From: Marine group II euryarchaeote REDSEA-S42_B7
Lineage (GTDB): Archaea; Thermoplasmatota; Poseidoniia; Poseidoniales; Thalassarchaeaceae
Length of the DNA stretch: 59,796 nucleotides
Assembly: GCA_001629255.1 (NCBI GenBank)
Contig: LURZ01000018.1
Span: 33,984-93,779 of the forward strand
Direction of reading: 5' to 3'
Positions 21,792 to 50,413 of the stretch are shown in pieces. Position 1 is the stretch's first letter, and each line of letters starts with the position of its first letter. The position numbers and the translations under genes were made by a program. The notes beneath the pieces are model-generated. The model had not been told where the DNA came from, searched no databases, and saw only the letters and a list, made by a program, of their open reading frames with translations.

Positions 21792-23456
21792 GTGGATTGG
21801 AGAAAGATAGGCGGTTTTCTCAATACCCGAAGGAACAAGAGGATAGCCTTGCAAGCCTCCTTCTGGGCCGTGCTCCTGCTTCTAATCGTATCAATCGCAA
21901 TTACTTATGTAGTCCCTGGACAGACTCAACAGTCCGCATATGGGGACGAGTGGAACGATCTTGGATCATTTCGTGAGGAACTGAACAATAAGGGAGTGGA
22001 GACAACAGCGCTGGTATCCAGTCCGCTGCTTTTGAGTGACATTGATCATCCTGAGCAGACCATCTTTGTGATATCCGGTGTGGAGAGGGATACAATTTCA
22101 CTCCCACGCTTCACCGGCGAAGATGACCTGATACAATTTTCTGAGGGAGACGGGTACACTTCTTCAGAGATTGTTGCAATCAGAGAATTTGTCTCGAGGG
22201 GCGGTACGCTGATTCTCATGGACGACTTTGGATATTCGAGTAACCTTGCCTCGGAGTTTGGTCTCCAATTCACTAACCATCGCTTGTATGCGGACTATAG
22301 CTACGACAACGACCTTGGGTCTGATTTCGTATGGGTAAATACCACCTCAGCATTCAACTTCACTTCGTCACAAGGAACACAGACCACGGTTAATCCATGT
22401 ATCAGAGATATCGATGGAGATGGAGTTGTCGACGTTCTCGATCAAGATCCCAGTGACCCAGAAATCGGAGCACCATTCGTAACAGTCCAAGACTCCGGTC
22501 TTTGCGCACACCGGTTCCTAGGCACAGATCCATCAACAAATCAGCCCAGATGGGATTGGTCACAGGATTACAGCATACTCACCAATACTCCATCGGCGTT
22601 CGAGAAGACTACCTCATACAATCCTGCGGAGAGACGCTATGTCATCTCAAAAACCACTCAGGACTCGTGGATAGACAATAATGGAGACGGCAACTACTCA
22701 GTTGGCTCCTTTGCTGCGTTTGGTCTTGTGGGGGACGAGCAGGGCCCGTTCCCAGTCTACGTCAGATACTGCGAGGCTATTCTTTGTCGGGGTTCAGAGA
22801 CCGGGAGAGTCCATTTCATATCTGATGGATCAGTTCTGATTAACTCATTGTACGATCCGGAATTCGCTTCGATATACTCCGGCATGGTACCAGAAAACGA
22901 CAATAGGAAATGGATTCTAGATGTAGTAGCAGAGGCTCTGATACTGAACGATAATGGAACTTCTCCAGGAGAAAACGCATTAGTTATCTTCGACGAGAGC
23001 AGGCACCAACAGCCCACAATATTCGGTGACACGTACAACCTAGTCTACTACCTACTGATCTATTTCACTAATGATTGGATGGCCATGCTGATACTATTCC
23101 TTTTCCTGTTCATTCTGCTAGAGGCTGTACTGATCAGGAAAGAGGACCCAGAGGACTGGAGACACGTTTTCAGAGTTGTTTACTATGGATTCGGAGATGC
23201 TGAGAGATACAAGTACTACCAGAGGCCAGAGAAAATCAGACAAGTTCTTCTCACTAGGGTAAGGAATCTCAATGCCCTAACAATGGAGGAGTTTGATGCA
23301 ATGCCGGCCTCCGAACTTCAGGGAATGATCCGTGATCCCGTTCTTGTTCGCTTCCTTTTCGAGGAGAGGAACTACAGGCCAGATGAATTGGTTGGTATTG
23401 TTAGGAGAATAAAACAATGGGGAGAGTCTGGGGGTGTGACGAAAGTTGTGGACTAG
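21792..23456 (+). CDS. DUF4350-type membrane protein with extracellular calcium-like motifs
   Basis: This 554-aa protein has an N-terminal membrane helix (LQASFWAVLLLLIVSIAITY), a large outside domain, a second helix near residue 435 (AMLILFLFLFILLEAVLI) and a cytoplasmic C-terminal domain. The region after the first helix (FREELNNKGVETTALVSS, then REFVSRGGTLILMDDFG) matches DUF4350, a glutamine amidotransferase-like fold. The outside domain carries two acidic loops, DIDGDGVVDVLDQDPSDPE and DNNGDGNYSVG, that look like calcium sites. Start is GTG at 21792 with GAGGTGG upstream. It overlaps the next gene by 11 nt. Families of this kind usually accompany MoxR ATPase and DUF58 genes. Function in the cell is not established. 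Confidence 0.8.
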   Translation: MDWRKIGGFLNTRRNKRIALQASFWAVLLLLIVSIAITYVVPGQTQQSAYGDEWNDLGSFREELNNKGVETTALVSSPLLLSDIDHPEQTIFVISGVERDTISLPRFTGEDDLIQFSEGDGYTSSEIVAIREFVSRGGTLILMDDFGYSSNLASEFGLQFTNHRLYADYSYDNDLGSDFVWVNTTSAFNFTSSQGTQTTVNPCIRDIDGDGVVDVLDQDPSDPEIGAPFVTVQDSGLCAHRFLGTDPSTNQPRWDWSQDYSILTNTPSAFEKTTSYNPAERRYVISKTTQDSWIDNNGDGNYSVGSFAAFGLVGDEQGPFPVYVRYCEAILCRGSETGRVHFISDGSVLINSLYDPEFASIYSGMVPENDNRKWILDVVAEALILNDNGTSPGENALVIFDESRHQQPTIFGDTYNLVYYLLIYFTNDWMAMLILFLFLFILLEAVLIRKEDPEDWRHVFRVVYYGFGDAERYKYYQRPEKIRQVLLTRVRNLNALTMEEFDAMPASELQGMIRDPVLVRFLFEERNYRPDELVGIVRRIKQWGESGGVTKVVD

Positions 23457-24696
23457 GAAAGCAGCAATTATGTTAGCAGGAGGTGTAAGCCTAATCTTGG
23501 TCGGAATGATGATCTCCAACTTCCAGATGATGATAATCGGTCTAACCTTCATCGCTTTCATATCTCTAAATGGGTGGATAGTAGGTCAGTCTGAACTAGA
23601 GATAACACGATTCGTGCCTCATTCGAATGTATACAAGGGAGACCTGATCGAGGTTTCGCTAACAATCACGAACAAGTCCTACAGGAGAACACAGCTACTG
23701 GAAATCTTTGACAACGTGCCCCATGAGATGAAGATAAGACGAGGTATCAACCAGATTAGGATAAACCTGGGACCGGGGCAGTCAACCAAACTAGATTACA
23801 TGCTCAGGTGCCCGCTTAGGGGGCACTTCTCGATAGGACCTATTTCTGTAAGACACCGTAATGCCTTCGGTTTGTTCGTGAACGAGTCGAAGATAGAGGA
23901 TCTGTGTGACATAACCGTCTTCCCACAGGTAAGGGACGTGGAGGACGCAATGCTGAGAGCGGACGTCCCGAAGATGTATACGGGAGCCACTACACTCAGA
24001 ACTCCTGGGCCTGGGATGGAGTTCTACTCGCTCAGGGAGTACCTCTCCACCGATCCGATCCGATCAATAAATTGGAAGGCGTTCGCAAGAACCGGTGAAA
24101 TGATGGTAAATCAGAAGACTAGGGACGCAGTTACTGATGTCTTCGTAATTCTCGACACAAGAGAGGTCAGTAGAATTGGGACCGTCCTGAAGAATCCTCT
24201 CGAGATGGGCGCATCTGCAGCGGCATCTCTAGCCAGCCATTTCCTGAAAAGGAAGGACTCCGTTGCCATGGTGACCTATGGGAGCAGGATGGACTTCCTA
24301 CCGCCTGATTCTGGCGATAAGCAGCAGTACAAGGTGTTGAGTCGCTTGGCTTCTGTTTCCCCCTCCGGATCGATGCCTCTCCAGGCGGTAACAAATGCAC
24401 TTTCTCCGAGAATCAGTCGCGGCTCTCCTGTCTTCATAATCAGCAGTCTAGAGGGCGATGGCACCACTCTTCCTGCAATCAGGAACTTGTCTGGAAACGG
24501 GCACGAGATAATCATCCTGTCACCCAGTAGCGTTGACCTCGAGAGACTAGTAAGCCGCATCCCCCGAATGGCCTACGAGGTCCTCAAGTTGGAGAGACAG
24601 AATCGATTGACTGCCGTATCGGGATACGGGGCCAAAGTCGTGGATTGGATGCCCGATGTCGAGCTGTCGCAGGCTCTGGTACAGTCGAGGGGGTGA
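23446..24696 (+). CDS. DUF58 protein with von Willebrand A-like domain
   Basis: This 416-aa protein has two N-terminal membrane helices within residues 8-50, an immunoglobulin-like stretch (VSLTITNKSYRRTQLLEIFD) and the DUF58 signature LREYLSTDPIRSINWKAFAR. The vWA-like part (TDVFVILDTREVSR) has a degenerate metal site because the usual DxSxS is DTREV. DUF58 proteins usually work beside a MoxR AAA ATPase in cell-surface or complex assembly, but no MoxR gene is present here. The TTG at 23446 follows GGGGGTG and adds a basic segment before the helix; the alternative ATG is at 23470. It is translationally coupled with both neighbours. Confidence 0.88.
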   Translation: MWTRKAAIMLAGGVSLILVGMMISNFQMMIIGLTFIAFISLNGWIVGQSELEITRFVPHSNVYKGDLIEVSLTITNKSYRRTQLLEIFDNVPHEMKIRRGINQIRINLGPGQSTKLDYMLRCPLRGHFSIGPISVRHRNAFGLFVNESKIEDLCDITVFPQVRDVEDAMLRADVPKMYTGATTLRTPGPGMEFYSLREYLSTDPIRSINWKAFARTGEMMVNQKTRDAVTDVFVILDTREVSRIGTVLKNPLEMGASAAASLASHFLKRKDSVAMVTYGSRMDFLPPDSGDKQQYKVLSRLASVSPSGSMPLQAVTNALSPRISRGSPVFIISSLEGDGTTLPAIRNLSGNGHEIIILSPSSVDLERLVSRIPRMAYEVLKLERQNRLTAVSGYGAKVVDWMPDVELSQALVQSRG

Positions 24697-24700
24697 GAAA

Positions 24701-25900
24701 TTGGAACTATCTGAGAAGAAGGAGGAAATAACTGAGACCCTGCATATTCCTGTACTGAGAAAGAAATGGCAGATATTAGTCCTACAAATAACCTCCACCG
24801 TTTCGCTTTTGCTCTTACTCAAGAGGATGAGCGATATCTATGGCCATTGTAGCGATGATTTCATTTTGAACAATAACGCGGATACCTGGTGTCCCTCATA
24901 CGAACACACCAGAGGCCTAATGTGGATGGAAAACGCCAATGGACTCCTAATACCGGATTTCCTTTTGGGTGTGGGGCAGACAGGCACGATGTCCATGATT
25001 GGACCTTTGGTCTTGTGCCTATTCGCAACTTTCGGGATAGAAAGATTCTGGTCATCCTCACAGGAGCTGCAGAACAGAATCAAGCAGGTGGCTGGAGCAT
25101 TGCTTGGTGCCTGGGTAATCCTACCATTCCTATTCTCTTGGATTTTAGCAACATTCTCCAATGGCTTCCACTTCCCTTGGAACAGCAACGACTCAATGAA
25201 TCACATAGGGGAACTGTTCCATCCATTGGGACTCATGGGAGAACTCGTGTTCCTAGGAATTGTATTCGCACCAGTCTTGGTAGGACTAATCGGGATATGG
25301 GGTCTTTCGAAGAGATTGATTACCTGGGTGGTAGGATACTACATTATCGTAATCGCATTCCACGCAGTCCTTACCTTCGAACCCATAGTCTCTGAGGTTG
25401 ACGTAGGACTACGTGCGCTTCCAACCCAGATAGGAGAGGGCTCCATGTTCGGTGGCCTGGTTTCCCCGCTTGCAGGCTCTCTAATTGGGGTAGCCATACT
25501 GATGCTTATTTTCTTGGAGTCTGGGTCTGCTGCCATATCTCACATGGAATACGCAGCCTCGCTACCTGAGGAGTCCAAGAGAGATCCTGAGTATATCAGG
25601 CAGTTCAATAACGTGGTCAACTCTCATCTAATCCAATTACTAGTGGTAGTATCCTTGGTAGGAGTTACCACGGCTCTCGCTCTGGCATTCGATGACCTGA
25701 TGATATCTATAGTTGGAATACTGGAGGGTACTCAGTGGACTGGCCAAGTAAAGGAATCGCTGGAACTACAGATGACATACGGCAAAGTAATCTCTGCAGG
25801 CCTCTTCATCATAGCAGTCGCCGGACTAAGATTCGTGGTCCCGTGGCAGATTGTTTCTGGCTACGTGGAATCGGGAATTTCGAGGCTTCGCTCTAATTAG
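24701..25900 (+). CDS. Polytopic membrane protein of the DUF58 operon, unknown
   Basis: This 399-aa protein has about seven hydrophobic segments, with an extracytoplasmic loop after the first helix that contains two cysteines (CSDDF and DTWCPSYEH). I do not recognise the family. Third gene of the DUF4350-DUF58 operon, it probably contributes to the same membrane assembly. The TTG at 24701 is preferred because GGGGGTGA lies just upstream and it begins right after the DUF58 stop; a frame reaching 24656 would overlap DUF58. Its TAG overlaps by four bases the stop of the convergent small gene. Confidence 0.75.
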   Translation: MELSEKKEEITETLHIPVLRKKWQILVLQITSTVSLLLLLKRMSDIYGHCSDDFILNNNADTWCPSYEHTRGLMWMENANGLLIPDFLLGVGQTGTMSMIGPLVLCLFATFGIERFWSSSQELQNRIKQVAGALLGAWVILPFLFSWILATFSNGFHFPWNSNDSMNHIGELFHPLGLMGELVFLGIVFAPVLVGLIGIWGLSKRLITWVVGYYIIVIAFHAVLTFEPIVSEVDVGLRALPTQIGEGSMFGGLVSPLAGSLIGVAILMLIFLESGSAAISHMEYAASLPEESKRDPEYIRQFNNVVNSHLIQLLVVVSLVGVTTALALAFDDLMISIVGILEGTQWTGQVKESLELQMTYGKVISAGLFIIAVAGLRFVVPWQIVSGYVESGISRLRSN

Positions 25901-28626: not shown

Positions 28627-28737
28627 CGTTATCTGACTATCGCGGAAGCAGCCCTCTCATATGCCTTGTCATTGCATAAAATGCTCAATTTCTCCAAACC
28701 GGCGTCTTGATGTGTGAAGCGCTGCCCCGAAGTTTCG

Positions 28738-29688
28738 ATGATAATCAGCCGAACCCCTCTCAGAGTTTCGTTCTGTGGAGGTGGAACGGATATTGATGAC
28801 TTCTCGATGTCAGAACCAAAGGGGGGCAGGGTAGTTTCAGCTGCACTGTCCAGATACGTGTATGTTACCATAAACAGGAGGTTCGATGATCGGATTCGAG
28901 TCTCTTACTCATCCATGGAGGATGTAGGTTCTCTAGAAAACATTCAACACGGTCTGGTTAGGGAGGCATTGAGACTAACTGGAATAGAGTCGGGCGTAGA
29001 GATTACCACTATTGCTGATATCCCAGGACAAGGAACCGGACTCGGGTCCTCCTCTTCGGTCACTGTAGGTCTACTCAATGCGATGCATGCTTTCCAGGGA
29101 AGGGAGGCATCTAAGGATCAACTCGCTGAAGAGGCTTGCCAGATCGAGATAGACACCTTGGGTGCACCGATTGGCAGACAGGACCAGTACGCAGCCTCTT
29201 TCGGAGGAGTCAACTCAATCAGGTTCGGAAAGAATGGAGTCCAAGTTGAACCCATCGAGGTTTCAGAAGGATTGTCCAAGAAATTCTCCGAGAATTTCAC
29301 CCTCGTTTTCACAGGAATGACTAGAAGTGCAAGCAAGGTCTTGTCTAAGCAATCTGATGATGAGTCTGACAAGAACAATAGGATGAGGGAAATTAGGAAG
29401 CACGCTGATGAGGCAGCTTCCTTTATACAGCAAGGAGATCTTGATTCACTAGGGGCCATCCTAAATCAGACATGGATATCTAAGCGAGGAGTCTCCTCAA
29501 TGATTACTAATACACAAATCGATGATTTGTATGAGAGTGCGATATCCTCCGGGGCAATAGGAGCCAAGCTACTAGGAGCTGGAAATGGAGGCTTCCTCTT
29601 GGTATGTGGAAATCAGCAGCTCCGAGGCATTTTACAAAGGGAACTAGGGGCAGGCCATCGGATGTTCACTTCTCTGGCTCCCGAATAA
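28738..29688 (+). CDS. GHMP-family sugar kinase (heptose 7-phosphate kinase-like)
   Basis: This 316-aa kinase begins MIISRTPLRVSFCGGGTD, the characteristic start of HddA-type sugar kinases. The GHMP phosphate-binding loop is IPGQGTGLGSSSSVTVG, and the third motif is AKLLGAGNGGFLLV. Related enzymes phosphorylate D-glycero-D-manno-heptose 7-phosphate or fucose-type sugars for glycan synthesis. No heptose isomerase or nucleotidyltransferase is adjacent, so the substrate is unknown. The ATG at 28738 is chosen over a GTG at 28714 on family N-terminus. GCATAAAATGC near 28673-28683 is a possible promoter element. Confidence 0.85.
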   Translation: MIISRTPLRVSFCGGGTDIDDFSMSEPKGGRVVSAALSRYVYVTINRRFDDRIRVSYSSMEDVGSLENIQHGLVREALRLTGIESGVEITTIADIPGQGTGLGSSSSVTVGLLNAMHAFQGREASKDQLAEEACQIEIDTLGAPIGRQDQYAASFGGVNSIRFGKNGVQVEPIEVSEGLSKKFSENFTLVFTGMTRSASKVLSKQSDDESDKNNRMREIRKHADEAASFIQQGDLDSLGAILNQTWISKRGVSSMITNTQIDDLYESAISSGAIGAKLLGAGNGGFLLVCGNQQLRGILQRELGAGHRMFTSLAPE

Positions 29689-29715: not shown

Positions 29716-31836
29716 ATGACACCCGAAAAAAGGAAATCAGAGTATCTAGCAACCCTCCTCATTTCTACTCTGCTCATGCTTTCTCAAATTATGGCATCTC
29801 ACAATTCATTGGAGGAACACGAATCGGATTCAGGTTTCTCAGATTCGAACGGTAATCAGACAATTCAAGGGCAGTCGTTCCTTAATTTCACCAATTCAAT
29901 CTCACATAGCTCACAGGTGAATGCGACTTGGTTTGCACAGGTGTCCGTTCTCGAGAGTTACGGAACCGATCTTCTGGAGAACAGATCGATCGGGCTCTTG
30001 AACCAGATAGATCAGGACCTAGGTAACTCGGATGGGTGGATAGACGAATCGGAAGCCAACTCTTTCTCTGAACTGGTAGTCTCTTCCAGAAACTGGACAG
30101 ACTCATTTTCAGGTGGTTGTTGCACATTCGACTATTCTTCCATGTCAGTAGTTGGATCCATTGACGTATCTGTCAATCCTCCGGAAATAGGGCCTACAAA
30201 CAGAACTGGGGGTGAATGGGGGTGGACGGAGAGTGGAAATCTGATCGGTACTTCCGATGGCAGAACTCTTCGATTAATCGACCTCCCAAGAGTAGGCGCT
30301 TTGATTGAGGAGGTTCCCCTGATGGTCTCTCTTCCTGAGGGCTGGGAGTTCAAGTTTAGCCCAATGTCGGAGATAATTACAGGTAGCCCAAGAGCATTCG
30401 TTGTCGACAGGTCTCAGGCCCCAGTTGCCTATGACATCAGGATTACAATTGACCGTAACATGCCTCCGATCCTTTCTGCGATAAGCTTCCCTCAAATTTC
30501 CTCAACAATCTCACTGGCAAAGTCCTCTTTGTTCTCTGCAACGTGCTCGGATAACCCATTGGAAAATCCGAGAATAGAGTGGACGATAAGCAGAAGCGGA
30601 ACAACAATTTCCTCATTCGAGAATGATTGGATATCGGTCAAGCCCAGCGATCTAAACTTCACCCATGGCGACGTAATGAGCGTGAACGCAACCTGCATTG
30701 ACTTCCACGGATCAGTATCGCATTGGAACGACAATCCCACCGTTGACGGAATCCCACCAGACTGGAGCGGGAAGTTCACAGTTAATGGAATCGAGGGACA
30801 GGTAATACAAAATGGAAGCCAAACGCCAATTCTTGCACCGGCGGGGAGCTTGGTTAGATTCGATGTCAACGCATCCGACGACTCATCATTACCGGTATTG
30901 CTGGAGTTGTACACAAACGTATCAGAGGGATGGAGGCAAACCGGTTTGAATCAGCAAACCTTCGAGTTCACCGCCAACCAGGGAATGGGCATCAATGGCG
31001 CCGATATGGGGATTGATGAGAGGCACTTGCAGAGGGCACCATCTGAAATCCTCATGGCACTGGTCGCTACCGACGATGCCGGAAACACGGTCTTATCGGA
31101 ATGGACACTCAGAGTCCTGGATGCAAACCCCCCCACAGTAATTCCACGATTATTCTCCGATGGAATAGAAATTGAGTATGACGACAAAATACATGAAAAT
31201 GATGAACTAGAGCTTAACCTCTCTCATTCTTACGACGACCTCGATCCAATAGGCGACGTTTCATGGTCCATATTGGTAGACGGCGAAGAGATATTCCAAA
31301 GTAACCCAGACTGGTCGGTCTTCGAACCAATAAGCCTCTCATTTCTCACCAAGGGCACTCATAACATCACCGTGAAAGCAACCGACTCCAAGGGGAATGT
31401 CAGGGAAGAACCGATCTCGATTACTGTTGAGCCTAGGAGTGGGGCTCACATCAGTGTGGTCGAAGCGACGCTTCCTGATGATGCTAGGATTGGAAGTAGC
31501 GTGATGCTCACGGGGATAGTACAAAACGATGGTTCCGATCCTGCGTTTGCTCGAGTGTGCCTATCAGATATCTGCGGAAGATGGACAGAAGAGCCATTTG
31601 CAGCCACATTGGAATCAGGCCCTGGACAGGCGACGATAGAGTTCCAGTTCGAGATGCAGAACGATACCGTCGAGGATCTATACCTCAGCTGGGATAGCGC
31701 TTCATCAGGGACATATGGGGATATTCCAATAGAGGTATCTCTAAAGAAACAAGCAGGAATCGCAACATCACTGATCCTGGTTGTTATACTCGGAATATCT
31801 GCATTATTATTTGCATGGTACAGAAACTCAGAATAA
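29716..31836 (+). CDS. Membrane-anchored surface protein with Ig-like repeats, unknown
   Basis: This 706-aa protein starts with a basic stretch and a hydrophobic signal segment (YLATLLISTLLMLSQIMASH) and ends with one membrane helix (ATSLILVVILGISALLFAWY) plus a short tail. The body is rich in Ser, Thr, Asn and Asp and appears to consist of several beta-sandwich units, the last resembling a CARDB-type domain (ASSVMLTG-like region around residues 590-680). A possible calcium loop is DLGNSDGWIDESEA. N-glycosylation sequons are frequent. I do not recognise the family. GAGGTG five nt before the ATG and a 27-nt gap from the kinase suggest an operon. Confidence 0.75.
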   Translation: MTPEKRKSEYLATLLISTLLMLSQIMASHNSLEEHESDSGFSDSNGNQTIQGQSFLNFTNSISHSSQVNATWFAQVSVLESYGTDLLENRSIGLLNQIDQDLGNSDGWIDESEANSFSELVVSSRNWTDSFSGGCCTFDYSSMSVVGSIDVSVNPPEIGPTNRTGGEWGWTESGNLIGTSDGRTLRLIDLPRVGALIEEVPLMVSLPEGWEFKFSPMSEIITGSPRAFVVDRSQAPVAYDIRITIDRNMPPILSAISFPQISSTISLAKSSLFSATCSDNPLENPRIEWTISRSGTTISSFENDWISVKPSDLNFTHGDVMSVNATCIDFHGSVSHWNDNPTVDGIPPDWSGKFTVNGIEGQVIQNGSQTPILAPAGSLVRFDVNASDDSSLPVLLELYTNVSEGWRQTGLNQQTFEFTANQGMGINGADMGIDERHLQRAPSEILMALVATDDAGNTVLSEWTLRVLDANPPTVIPRLFSDGIEIEYDDKIHENDELELNLSHSYDDLDPIGDVSWSILVDGEEIFQSNPDWSVFEPISLSFLTKGTHNITVKATDSKGNVREEPISITVEPRSGAHISVVEATLPDDARIGSSVMLTGIVQNDGSDPAFARVCLSDICGRWTEEPFAATLESGPGQATIEFQFEMQNDTVEDLYLSWDSASSGTYGDIPIEVSLKKQAGIATSLILVVILGISALLFAWYRNSE

Positions 31837-31885
31837 TCCTGTCCCTGCGCTGAACCTGGAACCGTATACATATTGACCCCCCTTT

Positions 31886-33607
31886 ATGTACGGGCATATG
31901 GTGATGCTTCCAGACTACCCCTCTCGTGTCGTCGCCAAGCATCGAACCAGGGTGGAAAGGGTATCTTTGCTCTTTCAGTTAATCCTAATTTCACTCGGGG
32001 CTTGGTGGCTCTTCTCTTCTTTTGGGTCCGAATCATCTCCGCTTAACAGGTACGTACCGGTATTAATTCTGTTCTCCTCTGCACTACTTCTTCAGGACCT
32101 AGTAGAATTCGGACCAACTGAGAGAATGCGAATCTCCACTGCATGCTGCATTGCATGGCCATTACTGCTGGCAATGGCATCGGTAAACCGTGTTGAAGGA
32201 AATATCGCCGCAGTCCTCACTCTGATTCTTGTCTCCGCAATTCTGTATTATATCTCGAGGAGTTTGCTAGGATACGATGTGAAAACAAGGAGATGGAGGG
32301 GAATGATGACAACAATTGGATTCACTATTGCGATTCCGATAGTCCTGGAATCAAACATCGCGTCTCTTTTGATAATGTCAATTGCCGCCTCATTCACCAC
32401 TATACCAATACTGTTCACGAAAGACGGGCTAGAGGAAGAAAGGAAAGATTTCTCTGAACAACTTAAGGATGCAGAGAGACATATCCTTGGTCTACAGTCT
32501 GGGAACACACTAATGCAACAACCGAACTCCCTACTAAAGATGGCCAGAGAGCAAGGTTGGAAAAATCCTGAAAGAGGTACTGAACTAATCTCAGAGGCCA
32601 AGAAGGAAGCAACCAGGATTGCATCATTTTTATCTGACGTCGAAGAAATCAGGGAGCAATCTGAAATGTCCATCAATAAAGCCGAGAGAGTAACAGGTTT
32701 CCCAGGGAGGCCAAGGAAGATTTTCGAAGACGCCTTGGCCGAACTTGAAAACGGCTCACTCAGGGCTTCTGAAAGCAGGTTCAGGGAGGCTAAGTCCGAG
32801 GCAGAGATGATTGAATCCAACTGGCAGAATGCCGTAGAAGCGATTGATGAGGCCGAGAAAGCTATTTCCGATGCGCAGGGTCACCTGGTCCAAGGACTTC
32901 GATCAACTCTAAATGAAGCGAAAAAAGCCATGGAAAATGAGGATCCACAATACGCATTGGCAATTGTTTCAGAGATACCATCCCAGATGGTTGATGTTGA
33001 AGGACTAATGTCGCAAGCAAGAAAATCCTTTGAGGAGGCCAAGAGCGAGGCTTCTTCGTTTGATTCGGGCTCCATTGGAGATCTGAATAAGAGGTTGGAA
33101 GATGCAAATGAGGCCTTAGATTCTGGAAATGCTTCTCTCGCAATCGGACTCTCGGAAGGAGTGACTAGGTCAATTAGGAAGGAATCCGAAGCTAAAACCA
33201 CTGTTCAGAGGTCTCTTAGACAGGTCAAGCGCATCAAGGACAGGATACCAGTTGGAGACTCGGGCTCTGAGTGGAGTAGAAGACTGGATGAGGCGAAATT
33301 GTCTGCAGATAAAGGAAAATGGATAGAGGCCGCAGAAAGTCTGAGCGCACTAGCCGAAGAGCTGGATGATTTCCACTCACGACTCGAAGAGGCCCGAGAG
33401 ATGCTCGAATTCCTGGATGGGGATTGGAGAAAACTCAGGAAAAGGCTAGAGTCATCGGGATATGGAGCGGATAACAAAGACAGGATTTCAACCGAGGGAT
33501 ATCTTGCAGCCGCAGAGAGGGCTCTTTCAGAAGGGCAGATCGACGATTGCTTGGAATCATTGGGAGAAGCAGACTCGTCAATGGAAGTACTTCGTCGTCT
33601 AGTCTAG
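31886..33607 (+). CDS. Multi-helix membrane protein with long cytoplasmic coiled-coil domain
   Basis: The first ~180 residues hold about six hydrophobic helices. The remaining ~390 residues are highly charged and helical, with repeated Glu/Lys/Ala/Ser patterns such as ESRFREAKSEAEMIESNW, EAKSEASSFDSGSIGDLN and RRLDEAKLSADKGKWIEAAE that suggest TPR-like or coiled-coil repeats of about 60-70 residues. The family is not recognised; known proteins with this layout act as membrane-tethered scaffolds. A TATA-like TATACATATT at about 31864-31873 could give a leaderless start at ATG 31886 or 31898. It follows the surface protein gene by 49 nt on the same strand. Confidence 0.75.
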   Translation: MYGHMVMLPDYPSRVVAKHRTRVERVSLLFQLILISLGAWWLFSSFGSESSPLNRYVPVLILFSSALLLQDLVEFGPTERMRISTACCIAWPLLLAMASVNRVEGNIAAVLTLILVSAILYYISRSLLGYDVKTRRWRGMMTTIGFTIAIPIVLESNIASLLIMSIAASFTTIPILFTKDGLEEERKDFSEQLKDAERHILGLQSGNTLMQQPNSLLKMAREQGWKNPERGTELISEAKKEATRIASFLSDVEEIREQSEMSINKAERVTGFPGRPRKIFEDALAELENGSLRASESRFREAKSEAEMIESNWQNAVEAIDEAEKAISDAQGHLVQGLRSTLNEAKKAMENEDPQYALAIVSEIPSQMVDVEGLMSQARKSFEEAKSEASSFDSGSIGDLNKRLEDANEALDSGNASLAIGLSEGVTRSIRKESEAKTTVQRSLRQVKRIKDRIPVGDSGSEWSRRLDEAKLSADKGKWIEAAESLSALAEELDDFHSRLEEAREMLEFLDGDWRKLRKRLESSGYGADNKDRISTEGYLAAAERALSEGQIDDCLESLGEADSSMEVLRRLV

Positions 33608-46378: not shown

Positions 46379-49300
46379 CTACGGGTTTTCATCGTTCGAC
46401 CAAGATATATCTGGAGCAGAAGGCAAAACCACACCCCTGTTTTCGGGACTTATGGCCAGTCTCTCTGGATTTACTCCATATGCTTCGAGGGCATCTTGTA
46501 ACTCTTTAGCCCTCGAAATTCTGATTCCAATCAAGAATCCTCCTGCAGAGAGGGCAATAAGGAAAGTGACTATCCCAATTATGCCTGTTGGGCTAGAGAA
46601 AATTGAGGAAAGCCAATTCATTGATTGCGGCTCTACCCAAATAGTCACCATGATATTCCACTCTATTTCAGTGTAGTAACCGTCTTCTGAGACGACCGCT
46701 TTTAGCTTCTGAATTGACGACCCCTCATCGCAGAATTGTATATGCATACTTTCCTCTGTATCTCTGCAATGGATCGGCATCAGAATGACAGTCTTCCCAT
46801 CTTGGCTGGTGTTGACTTCCAGAGAATAACCACTCATAGACCAAGTGATTACGGCGTCAACCGATGACTGAATCCCATAGACTGAGATTTCAAAGGACTC
46901 ATTCGCTGAATCCCAGGTAACTGGTATCGAACTAAAGGTCTTAGGACCATCGTATATATTCCCGTTTTCCAAGAAAACAGTACCCGACGACTTATCGTAA
47001 TTTGACAATATTAGACCTAGCCTGTTCAAAAACTCATCCTCTTCTCCGTCGCAGTCATCATCAACGCCATTCCACTGTTCGACAGCACCAGGGTATGTAC
47101 TTCCGACTAGATCGTCACAATCGTCATAATCGTAGAACCCGTCATTATCTCGGTCATAGTCTGCGAACACCGGACTAGAAAGGCCACGAGCAATTTCAGT
47201 TCCATCGTCTACTCCGTCTTGGTCCGTGTCTGCAGAATCGAATGATGTGCTGTAGTTGTGATACTCGGAATAGTCACTCAGGCCATCACCGTCAGTATCT
47301 CTTTCGTAGAAGTCCTCATCCACTAAATCGTCGCAGTCGTTATCTTTTCCATCTAGGTCCTCAGGACGCTCAGGAGCCCTTTCGAAGTCATCATCATCAC
47401 AGTCTTGGAAATGGTACCAGCCATCTAGGTCAGAGTCAGAATCTGCAACAAGCGGGTCAGACATGAACTCATTCAATTCAGTCCCATCGGGGAGTCCGTC
47501 CCCGTCAGAATCCCCGTCATTAGGATCCGTGGAGTATTGGTGATACTCTGCATAGTCAGTCAATCCATCCATATCTGTGTCAATCCAGAAGAAGTCTTCG
47601 TCTATGTCTTCGTCACAATCGTTGTCTAGTCCATCTAGGGACTCAGTCACGTCTGGTGCAAAACTCGAATCGTTGTCATCACAGTCATCGAACCAGTAAG
47701 CTCCATCGCCATCTGCATCTAGATCAACTATTAACGGATTACTACCGAACTCCAACTCCTGCCGATCTGGTATTCCATCCCCATCTGAGTCAGAATCCTC
47801 TGGGTTTGTTCCATGTATGTGGAATTCTTCCCAGTCCGACAATCCATCTCCATCTGCATCTGAATCATTGAAGCCCTCATCCTCAAGACCGTCGCAATCG
47901 TCATCCTTTCCATTGAGGATCTCTAACATCCCCGGATTTACCTCGATATCATCATCATCGCAGTCTTGGAAATGATAGTAATCGTCCGAGTCGTTGTCTG
48001 CGTCAAAGGTCAGGGGGTCTGAGAACCAAACAGTTATTTCATCATAATCGCTAATTCCGTCAGAATCAGAATCGTATGACAGTGGATTCGTGCTATGGAC
48101 CATTACCTCTTGATAATCGCCGAGCCCATCATCATCGGTGTCGTTGTCAATCGCCTTGGTCCCGTAGATTACAACTTCCTGATAGTCATCCAATCCATCG
48201 TCATCCGAGTCAGAATCTAATGGATCCGTCAGATGCACCGAGGTCTCATTCAAATCACTCAGACCATCCCCATCATCATCCAAGTCAAGGTAGTTGCATA
48301 CTCCGTCCAAGTCAGTGTCCGACGGAGTGGACGAGTTATCCAGAGGGTCAGTTGAACATGACAGCTCCGCGGAGTCGTTCCAATTATCATCATCATCGTC
48401 GGAGTCAAGGTAGTTGCAGGCTCCGTCCGAGTCAGTGTCCGACGGAGTGGATGAGTTATCCAGAGGGTCGGTCGAGCAGGACATCTCGTCTATGTCGACC
48501 CAACCATCATTGTCATCGTCTAAATCGTTGTAGTCGGGCCACCCATCCCCATCTGTGTCTGTAACATTCCCGACTCCATGGAAAATCAACTCCCATGAGT
48601 TCAGAGTCCCGGAGTTAGATCCCGTGACCGAATCTCGAACCTTCAGGATCCAGTTACCCTGAGAGGACTCGTCCCAGTGCTGGACCGTACCGAACCTCCA
48701 ATTCGAGTAGTCTGCATTGTTGTCATCATGAACCTCAGCAAGCCACGACTGGTGACCACTAGGGGACTCCAGAACAATGTCCAGCTCTCCTCTGGCAGTG
48801 TGGGTGATATCGACAATAACGTCTACCGACTCTAGGCTCAAGTCAATTGGAACCGAGAGGTTGAACTCAGTCCATGCGCTTGGTCCGTTATCGATGACAA
48901 GATTCTCTGTGAAAGGCCCAAAAGTAGCGTTCGCCTCCTCCCCACTGCTCGTCCAATTCTCAGCCAATGACACTGCTGCACCTGCATCCACTGCTCCGAA
49001 TCCGTACTTATGAGAGACGTTGAGACCTCCCCCGTTCACGGTCCACGAAGAATCGTTCACATCGTTCTTCCTGGAGCTATGGACGAGGATATTCTGGACA
49101 TCGCGCCAAGTCAAATCGGGATTTGACTCCAGAATCAGAGCTATTACTCCGGAAACAAGAGGTGTTGCACTAGAGGTTCCTCCGAAGTCATGGTTAACGT
49201 CTCCTCCGCTGTATCCGCCTGTTCCAGTGATATCCGTGGTTGTTATCCCTTCGTAGTCAGGCGTCCCACCATTGGAGTGTGCGGTTACCAGAATGTTTGC

Positions 49301-50413
49301 CCCAGGTTCAGAGTACCACGATTGATCGCCGTAGTGTGTAATAGCGGATACTGCAATCGCATATCTTAGGCTTGCATAGCCGTCATAGTTAGAATTGTCA
49401 TTTGCTTCAAGCCCATTCCCAGCGGCCCACGTGTAAATATTGCCCAGCCCGGACCTTCCGTTGTATATCGAATCCTCAATGGCTGCAATGGTTATTGGAC
49501 CAGGGCCCTCAAGACTGCTCCCATCGTCTGTGGGCCCCCAGGAGTTAGAGTAGATATCTATGTCTCCGTTGTCATAACTAAGAGCATCCGCAGCGGTAGA
49601 GTCCGTGAAACCACACGCAATCAATCTGTGGCCGGCGATATTTGCCCCGAATGCAGCACCTGTCACTCCGATTGAATTGTTCCCGGTTCCTGCTGCTACT
49701 CCGGCTACCGCTGTTCCATGCCCGTCCCAGGAGTTAGGGTCCGGGTCCGGATCATCTCCGCACCAGTCATAGGAGTGCTGAGAGAGGTAGTTAGTGGTAA
49801 GGTCAGGGTGAGAATGCTCCACACCGTCGTCAATCACACTGATCACGACTCCCGAACCATTGTAGGAGTTCCAGACTGCAGTTACATTAGCATCCTCGCC
49901 CGACGTACCGCTAGTTTGTCCAGTGTTGTTCAGATGCCATTGATCGTCATAGAATGGGTCATTTGGCTCGAATCTCGTAGAGACAGACCTATCCAGTAGA
50001 GGCGAGAAAGACTCAATCTCCCCCTTCAAAAATGAACTCCTCAGTTTTTCGAGTCCTTTTGTAGAATCTTCGAAAGTCCATATGTAGGAACCCCTAAGAT
50101 GCTCTACTGGCTTGCTTTCCTCAGGCTCCGCTTCCGTCCATCTATGCTCCTTAATCGGGATTCCAGTCACGACAAGCCAGGAATCTACAACCGCCAACTC
50201 TGCCTCTTCATATGAGTCGATATCAGAAACTCTCTCGAACGCAATCTGGACCGATCTTGAGTATGTCCCCAAGATATCTTCCAAAACTACAGTGGGTATT
50301 TCCTCAGGCTCTTCCCCTCCTACGGCGTGCGCAGCAGGGGAGAAGGACACCATCAACAATACCAATATGGCGACTCTCACATGGTAGTTACATAAACTAG
50401 AGAATATAGCCAT
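46379..50413 (-). CDS. Giant secreted subtilisin-like protease with calcium/metal repeats
   Basis: This 1344-aa S8 serine protease has a signal peptide (residues 1-30, ending PAAHA), a propeptide-like region, and a catalytic domain with Asp in VISVIDDGVEHSHPDL (~196), His in WDGHGTAVAGVAAG (~232) and Ser in FGGTSSATPLVSG (~414). A P-domain/proprotein convertase domain follows (ARGELDIVLESPSGHQSW). Residues ~615-1170 are acidic repeats: TSP3-like D-x-D-x-DG motifs and four MopE-like units (DCDDDD...NGKDDDCDG). One membrane helix (GIIGIVTFLIALSAGGFLIGI) and a short cytoplasmic tail end the protein. It likely digests proteins at the cell surface; the repeats may bind calcium and act as a stalk. 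Confidence 0.92.
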   Translation of the reverse strand: MAIFSSLCNYHVRVAILVLLMVSFSPAAHAVGGEEPEEIPTVVLEDILGTYSRSVQIAFERVSDIDSYEEAELAVVDSWLVVTGIPIKEHRWTEAEPEESKPVEHLRGSYIWTFEDSTKGLEKLRSSFLKGEIESFSPLLDRSVSTRFEPNDPFYDDQWHLNNTGQTSGTSGEDANVTAVWNSYNGSGVVISVIDDGVEHSHPDLTTNYLSQHSYDWCGDDPDPDPNSWDGHGTAVAGVAAGTGNNSIGVTGAAFGANIAGHRLIACGFTDSTAADALSYDNGDIDIYSNSWGPTDDGSSLEGPGPITIAAIEDSIYNGRSGLGNIYTWAAGNGLEANDNSNYDGYASLRYAIAVSAITHYGDQSWYSEPGANILVTAHSNGGTPDYEGITTTDITGTGGYSGGDVNHDFGGTSSATPLVSGVIALILESNPDLTWRDVQNILVHSSRKNDVNDSSWTVNGGGLNVSHKYGFGAVDAGAAVSLAENWTSSGEEANATFGPFTENLVIDNGPSAWTEFNLSVPIDLSLESVDVIVDITHTARGELDIVLESPSGHQSWLAEVHDDNNADYSNWRFGTVQHWDESSQGNWILKVRDSVTGSNSGTLNSWELIFHGVGNVTDTDGDGWPDYNDLDDDNDGWVDIDEMSCSTDPLDNSSTPSDTDSDGACNYLDSDDDDDNWNDSAELSCSTDPLDNSSTPSDTDLDGVCNYLDLDDDGDGLSDLNETSVHLTDPLDSDSDDDGLDDYQEVVIYGTKAIDNDTDDDGLGDYQEVMVHSTNPLSYDSDSDGISDYDEITVWFSDPLTFDADNDSDDYYHFQDCDDDDIEVNPGMLEILNGKDDDCDGLEDEGFNDSDADGDGLSDWEEFHIHGTNPEDSDSDGDGIPDRQELEFGSNPLIVDLDADGDGAYWFDDCDDNDSSFAPDVTESLDGLDNDCDEDIDEDFFWIDTDMDGLTDYAEYHQYSTDPNDGDSDGDGLPDGTELNEFMSDPLVADSDSDLDGWYHFQDCDDDDFERAPERPEDLDGKDNDCDDLVDEDFYERDTDGDGLSDYSEYHNYSTSFDSADTDQDGVDDGTEIARGLSSPVFADYDRDNDGFYDYDDCDDLVGSTYPGAVEQWNGVDDDCDGEEDEFLNRLGLILSNYDKSSGTVFLENGNIYDGPKTFSSIPVTWDSANESFEISVYGIQSSVDAVITWSMSGYSLEVNTSQDGKTVILMPIHCRDTEESMHIQFCDEGSSIQKLKAVVSEDGYYTEIEWNIMVTIWVEPQSMNWLSSIFSSPTGIIGIVTFLIALSAGGFLIGIRISRAKELQDALEAYGVNPERLAISPENRGVVLPSAPDISWSNDENP
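48288..48482. repeat. 120-bp-period tandem duplication inside the subtilase gene
   Basis: Two copies of a ~75-bp conserved block start at 48288 and 48408 (period exactly 120 bp, 40 codons). Within 48301-48362 versus 48421-48482 only about six of 62 bases differ. Each copy encodes CSTDPLDNSSTPSDTD plus an acidic loop. The similarity at DNA level indicates a recent in-frame duplication. Confidence 0.85.

Follow-up and report, generated by a model that had tools for sequence, protein, structure and literature searches.

Among the planktonic archaea of ocean surface waters, those of Marine Group II are described as the most abundant, with few or no cultured representatives (PMC6461757). Here two adjacent genes, P1 and P2, from the Marine group II euryarchaeote REDSEA-S42_B7 are discussed. 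They lie on a 59,796-nucleotide stretch of contig LURZ01000018.1 that will be called the window; the genome is a 1.19 Mb assembly that is 71% complete. A first-pass annotation proposed that the two genes form one uncharacterized module that connects the envelope to an internal scaffold, for example in cell shape or adhesion. Ig-domain stalks, heptose enzymes, and helical rods are all known kinds of element. Ig-like surface proteins and calcium-stabilized adhesins (e.g. 4p99) resemble P1 in having a tandem Ig-like ectodomain on a membrane anchor, but P1 differs from the 4p99-type adhesins in its conserved EF-hand-like domain and in the exchanged heads that precede the stalk in some relatives. 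Among the helical rods, EbhA/Ebh is an extracellular protein, unlike P2, and EzrA has a single N-terminal transmembrane (TM) helix where six are predicted for P2. EzrA contains five repeats of about 100 residues (PMC4243239), and the repeat of P2 is ~62-64 residues long. As far as we have seen, the changing heads on an archaeal stalk and the order-specific rod with six TM helices are new.

We consider it on balance probable that P1 is a glycosylated display stalk and P2 a membrane-anchored cytoplasmic scaffold, and that the two are usual neighbors and not one obligate module. A conserved, anchored stalk whose catalytic heads change is most simply explained as a display stalk, and the scaffold reading of P2 is based on three things: its shape, its conservation, and the lack of a recognized catalytic family. 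In this model P1 would be exported by its signal peptide and N-glycosylated, and would consist of a domain with an EF-hand-like motif (possibly calcium-stabilized) and about four Ig-like domains on one C-terminal TM helix. In several relatives a catalytic head would be fused at the membrane-distal end, with the stalk acting as a platform that keeps hydrolases off the membrane; the headless P1 of the window could be a coat, an adhesin, or a partner-binding stalk. The six TM helices of P2 would anchor a cytoplasmic rod of short helical-bundle repeats, and P2 most likely serves other proteins as a scaffold or spacer bound to the membrane. The domain anatomy (predicted), distribution, gene neighborhood, head changes, and kinase-GmhA co-occurrence were computed, and the features of the locus are given below with their basis.

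28714..29688, + strand: GHMP-family sugar kinase, nearest to the HddA type, the usual 5' neighbor of P1 (NCBIfam NF049969, solved relatives, neighborhood)
29716..31836, + strand: P1, type I surface stalk protein of 706 aa, headless, probably N-glycosylated (open reading frame (ORF), model, column counts, homologs)
29737..29793, + strand: P1 signal helix, residues 8-26; the enzyme heads of relatives come after it (model)
29992..30087, + strand: P1 EF-hand-like helix-loop-helix, residues 93-124, with a non-canonical loop (model, column counts)
30460..31731, + strand: P1 residues 249-672, roughly four Ig-like domains in tandem, with a weak PKD signal in one of them (model, reading of the strand pattern)
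30916..30924, + strand: P1 N-glycosylation sequon at N401, near-invariant (40/42 sequences)
31759..31830, + strand: P1 C-terminal transmembrane anchor, residues 682-705 (model and hydropathy)
31886..33607, + strand: P2, 573 aa, six-TM protein with a cytoplasmic helical rod, a Poseidoniales core protein; likely start 31898 (ORF, homologs, model)
31916..32413, + strand: P2 membrane domain, residues 11-176, with six helices and less conserved than the rod (model, pairwise identity)
32432..33601, + strand: P2 cytoplasmic rod, residues 183-572, in which short and long helices alternate with a period of ~64 residues (model, profile comparison)

P1 and P2 are genuine genes and not chance ORFs because homologs occur across the Poseidoniales: P2 was matched in 122 of the 127 sampled genomes, as a rule in one near full-length copy, and P1 immediately precedes P2 in 71 of 74 named Thalassarchaeaceae loci. 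The family labels of the relatives (Thalassarchaeaceae, Poseidoniaceae) are inferred assignments. The second P2 matches listed are fragments or weak, and the five Poseidoniales that lack a P2 match include G027, where P1 runs off the contig end and a gap is likely. P2 was found in none of seven genomes of the same class outside the Poseidoniales, and 20 of 262 genomes outside the order gave matches, of which those listed fall in the rod. Judged by its homologs, P2 more likely starts at the ATG at 31898 (MVMLPDYP) than at 31886. No Pfam or NCBIfam model scored above its cut-off in either protein, in keeping with the initial remark that neither is recognized.

In the predicted structure of P1 (42 sequences; mean pLDDT 85.3, pTM 0.54), the signal helix leads through a linker of low confidence to a beta domain; Ig-like domains then follow one another up to residue 672, and the TM helix comes last, in agreement with the proposal of a 706-residue surface protein. 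The strand pattern suggests that there are about four Ig-like domains. PKD (PF00801) falls narrowly under its cut-off (22.0 bits vs 23.5), a wide range of unrelated Ig-like tandems turn up as fold matches, which carry little functional information, and a search of solved structures with the P1 profile gave three weak matches. The beta domain holds a helix-loop-helix in the model (helix 93-102, loop, helix 111-124) in which D99, G103, and E113 are present in 42/42 sequences and D106 in 41/42. A canonical EF-hand was considered for this segment and rejected, as loop position 1 is Leu (38) or Ile (4) in the 42 sequences and never Asp. What was first called an EF-hand-like loop is thus conserved as a helix-loop-helix but departs from the canonical loop at its first position, and calcium binding by the motif is plausible.

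Some relatives have a longer P1. In 16 of the named loci the P1 ORF encodes 931-1316 aa, as opposed to the usual ~700, and the stalk profile is found at the C-terminal end. Nine P1 proteins (L161, L162, L164, L167, L179, L181, L198, L204, L208; the L204 gene is split in its assembly) have a PF00144 head with E values from 2e-46 to 8e-42 and scores of 144-160 bits vs a cut-off of 27. The motifs SxxK, YxN, and HxG are those of the beta-lactamase-type serine hydrolases, and the catalytic motifs SLSK, YSN, and HWG are present in all nine heads. Reprolysin-like metalloprotease heads pass the Pfam cut-off in L167, L180, and L190 and fall below it in L160, and all four contain HExxHxxGxxH; L167 has two heads, the metalloprotease and PF00144. 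A putative Exo_endo_phos head (PF03372, E 9e-12) occurs in L172. Additionally, L196, L199, and L201 form one clade with an extension of 230-340 residues, for which a Pfam scan of L196, the member scanned, gave no family; the extension of L070 matches CarboxypepD_reg below the cut-off; and L171 has two internal insertions between stalk domains and no N-terminal head.

The head states were mapped on a tree made quickly from 70 P2 proteins, in which 59 loci were scored and 11 rows were left unscored (P1 cut, split, or absent); L194, L204, L207, and L208 are outside the tree (P2 cut or split). Among the 59 there are 44 loci without a head (called by ORF length and not by individual scans), 6 with PF00144, 3 with the metalloprotease, 1 with both, 1 with Exo_endo_phos, 3 with another extension, and 1 with insertions, so that 11/59 carry an enzyme head. 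The states require at least nine changes on the tree, and at least five if only head vs none is considered; the metalloprotease heads need three. The sister loci L160 and L172 bear different heads. This is a pattern of exchange or of repeated gain and loss and not of one ancient fusion. The suggested adhesion role is possible for P1, yet the enzyme heads of its relatives point more to the display of hydrolases.

The sugar coat of P1 was assessed from its sequons. N-glycosylation sequons number 14.5 on average vs 7.4 in shuffles, they exceed expectation in 42/42 sequences, and the N401 sequon is retained in 40 of them. A match to the STT3/AglB family above the cut-off is present in the window genome. 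All three features expected of an archaeal N-glycoprotein, namely a signal peptide, sequons above chance, and AglB in the genome, are found for P1, and the protein is probably N-glycosylated. The alternative that survives best takes P1 for a simple S-layer or coat glycoprotein and its heads for rare and unimportant fusions. The Ig-like tandem and the sequon excess fit such a coat, a Haloferax S-layer chain (7ptu, Z 8.7) is among the many Ig-like matches, and the 44 headless proteins are the majority of those scored. On the other hand, the Ig-like matches are generic, and the heads retain their catalytic motifs and are found in separate clades. P1 was also not found at the locus in five of the ten Poseidoniaceae genera read (g11, g12, g13, g15, g17), which would therefore need another coat. 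We regard a plain coat as possible but doubtful.

The next question is whether P1 and P2 belong together. In the Thalassarchaeaceae the remaining three of the 74 loci are L184, which starts at P2, and L187 and L189, which have the order kinase-P2 and a P2 on a very long branch (1.57). Among 27 Poseidoniaceae genomes read, P1 is beside P2 in 7 (g14, g19, g20) and elsewhere in 3 (g16, g21); in 16 (g11, g12, g13, g15, g17) no P1 was seen at the locus, where one elsewhere in the genome is possible, and one contig is cut. These absences were counted from the loci read, because whole-genome searches can miss P1: G255, unmatched genome-wide, holds a 972-aa P1 at its locus (164 bits). Most other genome-wide P1 matches in the Poseidoniaceae lie in other proteins, where they cover only the PKD/Ig part (about 437-564), and these were left out of the count. 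The adjacency must be old, as it is present in the Thalassarchaeaceae and in some Poseidoniaceae, and the ancestral order was probably kinase-P1-P2, which P2 outlived. The pair proposed in the first-pass annotation is therefore kept together in one family and in a minority of the genomes read in the other.

If P1 and P2 formed one trans-envelope complex, the TM helix of P1 would pack in the six-helix domain of P2 and couple the stalk to the rod. The adjacency in both families favors this idea, and a correlation between P1 and P2 identity remains after the contribution of pyrB is removed (partial r 0.29; 136 pairs, 17 genomes), but this coefficient is small and the pairs are not independent. 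P2 is still present in genomes whose locus showed no P1 (16/27) or whose P1 lies elsewhere (3/27), and L187 and L189, without P1, retain P2 on its long branch. P2 occurs also in lineages where P1 was not found. Beyond its TM helix P1 has a tail of ~1 residue in the model of the window protein, and relatives also have a short one, and therefore any tie to an internal scaffold must pass through the membrane. We judge the complex improbable. P1 as an obligate partner of P2 is ruled out by the loci that have P2 and no P1; P2 is kept without P1 and is therefore not dependent on it. The earlier interpretation holds for two uncharacterized neighbors of the kind described and is not supported for a single module bridging the envelope and the interior, given the loci with P2 only, the kinase that stays with P1 away from P2, and the near-nil tail of P1.

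For P2, the favored reading is that of a membrane-anchored scaffold. The predicted structure (mean pLDDT 87.5, pTM 0.46) has six TM helices within residues 11-176 and helices from 183 to 572. The charges of the N-terminus (+1.1) and of loops 2 and 4 (+1.4 and +3.1) vs those of loops 1 and 3 (-0.9 and -1.6) fit an N-terminus inside the cell. The rod is placed inside the cell because the number of TM helices is even and the inner loops carry these charges, although the stretch right after the last TM helix is itself acidic (-1.6). Model and loop charges thus agree with the six-helix protein and ~390-residue cytoplasmic rod proposed at the outset. The median pairwise identity in 17 genomes is 0.376 for the rod vs 0.241 for the membrane part. 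In the model the rod helices alternate between short (14-18 residues) and long (21-45 residues) and make up six units of ~64 residues. When the units were compared by hhalign, R3-R4 gave 91.4% and R4-R6 gave 63.3%, the other 13 of 15 pairs were below 30%, and the maximum among 30 column-shuffled decoys was 3.2%.

By profile comparison, the P2 rod is a distant relative of giant repeat proteins found in other Thermoplasmatota (hhalign 97.7%, E 2.1e-12, 321 columns), and the rod profile gave no match in 200 block-shuffled giants, 5 reversed giants, or 19 long control ORFs. The rod-containing matches outside the order that were read are mostly many-repeat ORFs of 1,200-1,600 aa, with a few of ~440-540 aa. 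The giants (1,232-1,625 aa; L125-L128, L134, L135, L137) resemble P2 in that the alignment spans nearly the whole rod, and L125 has an autocorrelation peak at 62 residues, close to the P2 period. They differ in having many more repeats than P2, whose six TM helices are followed by about six. Hydropathy shows no TM helix in the giants apart from a single one in L127, and their C-terminal Cys/His cluster is invariant in the six aligned (L125, L126, L128, L134, L135, L137) and RING-like in L125. No Pfam repeat family was found in L125 or the shorter L127, the two that were scanned.

For P2, none of 136 Foldseek matches reached E 0.001 or better, a search of solved structures with the P2 profile gave no match, and the noise level for helical models in VIA, the fold-match search, is Z 13. 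Below this level are the best VIA match of the last 80 residues (494-573), the DnaK helical lid 4b9q (Z 10.6, 77 residues, rmsd 2.1), and the match of residues 314-567 to EbhA of Staphylococcus (2dgj; 219/242 residues, Z 7.7, rmsd 9.4). P2 would be built like a spectrin- or EbhA-type rod with a likeness that is only architectural, and it is kept out of these families because the fold matches are under the helical noise level. No Hsp70 family match was found in P2 with Pfam or NCBIfam, nor any transporter, chaperone, or signaling family above the cut-off (Pfam also on 20 members), and membership in a known transporter or chaperone family, which would have gone against the original proposal, is thus not observed.

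P2 might instead be a sensor or a transporter, with a ligand-binding membrane domain and the rod as its output domain. Six TM helices would suit this function, and residues 76-180 match the membrane domains of ABC exporters (VIA Z about 7), but these matches are at noise level, no signaling or transport family is over its cut-off, and the membrane part is the less conserved half of the protein (0.241 vs 0.376), so we find the proposal quite unlikely. Weakest of all, and very improbable in our view, is a role for P2 in regulating the division ring as EzrA does, in which P2 would be a membrane-tethered arch of the spectrin type that binds FtsZ. The long helices between short ones in a membrane-anchored cytoplasmic rod recall EzrA, and their alternation, in a model with a pTM of 0.46, would fit repeats whose third helix runs on into the first helix of the following repeat; the EzrA cytoplasmic domain 4uxv is among the VIA matches (Z 7.8 over 327 residues), PF06160 is found in 2/20 members (best E 0.0016), and the genome has two tubulin/FtsZ-family matches above the Pfam cut-off, but the rmsd is 11.3, the Z value is below the helical background of 13, P2 has the shorter repeat, six TM helices, and no membership in the sequence family, and a divergent SepF is present in 29/30 Poseidoniales. 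P2 was also tried as a missing FtsZ anchor and rejected; PF04472 matches 3/30 Poseidoniales but a divergent SepF query finds 29/30, and P2 therefore need not be the anchor. The divergent SepF, which the Pfam model mostly misses, was seen beside a proteasome-like gene at L230, L231, and L232.

P1 usually comes after the heptose-kinase-like gene. The kinase matches NCBIfam NF049969 with 155 bits (E 2.7e-45), under the cut-off of 600, and from reading the sequence its true start is likely the ATG at 28738. Its closest solved relatives are 3k85, 4n3o, 4usm, and 4usk; the heptose kinases 3k85 and 4n3o match with E values of 1.9e-36 and 2.8e-35, and the next matches are named merely sugar kinase. 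The kinase is like the D-glycero-D-manno-heptose phosphate kinases (HddA type) in its nearest solved relatives and in the presence of GmhA- and GmhB-like partners, and unlike the HddA/GmhA/GmhB set in that all three are below the NCBIfam equivalog cut-offs and the kinase is linked to a surface-protein gene. A gmhA-like gene was matched in 11/21 genomes of one set and 13/20 of a second. It occurs in 22 of 23 kinase-bearing genomes (exception G312) vs 1 of 17 kinase-less genomes (G058), counts that ignore kinship. G035, whose contig begins inside P1, was excluded, and for five of the 17 (G059, G191, G235, G255, G058) no kinase was among the matches listed, with the locus read for four of them and not for G191. 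The phylogenetically informative cases are Poseidoniaceae g16, g20, and g21, which have both kinase and gmhA in 5/5 genomes; neither was found in the sampled Poseidoniaceae genomes of g11-g15 and g19. Of the 18 gmhA loci that were compared, 17 have the gmhB-like gene next to gmhA (exception L239, genus g10), as in the Thalassarchaeaceae loci L246 (7148-8373) and L248 (7354-8595); no gmhB-like gene was found in L069 (genus g10), where gmhA sits by the kinase and P2. The kinase and the GmhA- and GmhB-like enzymes encoded elsewhere would probably make activated heptose for surface glycans. Heptose is our best guess for the sugar of the pathway, which could be another.

In the window the kinase gene is 5' of P1 on the same strand, and pyrB-pyrI lie 5' on the opposite strand; a tRNA-Gly and a beta-propeller protein gene follow P2. 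With starts chosen mechanically, the median gap is 0 nt between the kinase and P1 (59 loci, range -323 to 177) and 52 nt between P1 and P2 (67 loci, range -106 to 90). Such small gaps are compatible with co-transcription of the three genes, which we infer from their sizes. In genera g16 and g21 the kinase stays with P1 away from P2.

Several observations weigh against the display stalk, the heptose pathway, and the scaffold. Enzyme heads are in the minority, and display may therefore be a derived use; the headless majority would need another role such as a coat, adhesion, or the binding of separate enzymes. The sequon excess is not specific to P1, as a 1344-aa subtilase of the window has 21 sequons vs 12.2 expected; the beta-propeller protein has scarcely any excess (7 vs 5.5). 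The kinase and P1 are separable, since g14 and g19 have P1 without a kinase at the locus and L187 and L189 carry the kinase and P2 without P1. In g17, G058 has a gmhA match and no kinase at its locus, the neglect of kinship applies to the whole kinase-gmhA comparison, and the sugar could differ because the kinase, GmhA, and GmhB matches are all under equivalog cut-offs. For P2, the model has a pTM of 0.46, only 2 of the 15 repeat pairs are above 50% in hhalign, and the fold matches lie under helical noise, with the DnaK lid and no scaffold protein as the best.

A number of side observations were made. L148 and L158 are recorded as a Planctomycetaceae bacterium and an Acidiferrobacter sp., yet have the archaeal kinase-P1-P2 order, and are probably mislabeled or contaminated bins. 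A membrane protein of 850 residues that shows a weak TPR signal (L071, 10005-12566, and equivalents) adjoins P2, pyrI, or pyrB; it is present in many of the Poseidoniaceae loci read and is often near thrS. At 21792-25900 the window has a three-gene run of DUF4350, DUF58, and an unrecognized 414-aa membrane protein, homologs of which are near the P1-P2 locus in many relatives. The 1344-aa subtilase (46379-50413) is secreted and has a P-domain, four MopE metal-binding motifs, and TSP3 repeats.

A literature search that covered mostly titles and the beginnings of abstracts met no description of P1 or P2, found nothing for Poseidoniales with beta-lactamase and peptidase, and returned only phage work for Marine Group II with heptose. 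One study reports 199 families in modules tied to Poseidoniales, and also a Thalassarchaeaceae module with calcium-binding domains (PMC9258230), and P1 or P2 may be among these families.

A wider picture can be drawn, and we put it forward tentatively, as less likely than not: the Poseidoniales would have a modular surface display system in which a conserved, heptose-glycosylated Ig stalk, with catalytic heads (serine hydrolase, metalloprotease, Exo_endo_phos) exchanged between lineages, is encoded beside an order-specific, membrane-anchored cytoplasmic rod that positions these stalks or other membrane proteins, an archaeal analogue of a spectrin-type membrane skeleton. If hydrolase heads are indeed exchangeable on the stalk, the enzymes would stay on the cell and would not be lost to seawater, and the head-stalk system would be a marker that predicts what each lineage digests. 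P2 is near-universal in the Poseidoniales and better conserved in its cytoplasmic part than in the membrane domain, which makes it a good candidate for a lineage-specific envelope scaffold.

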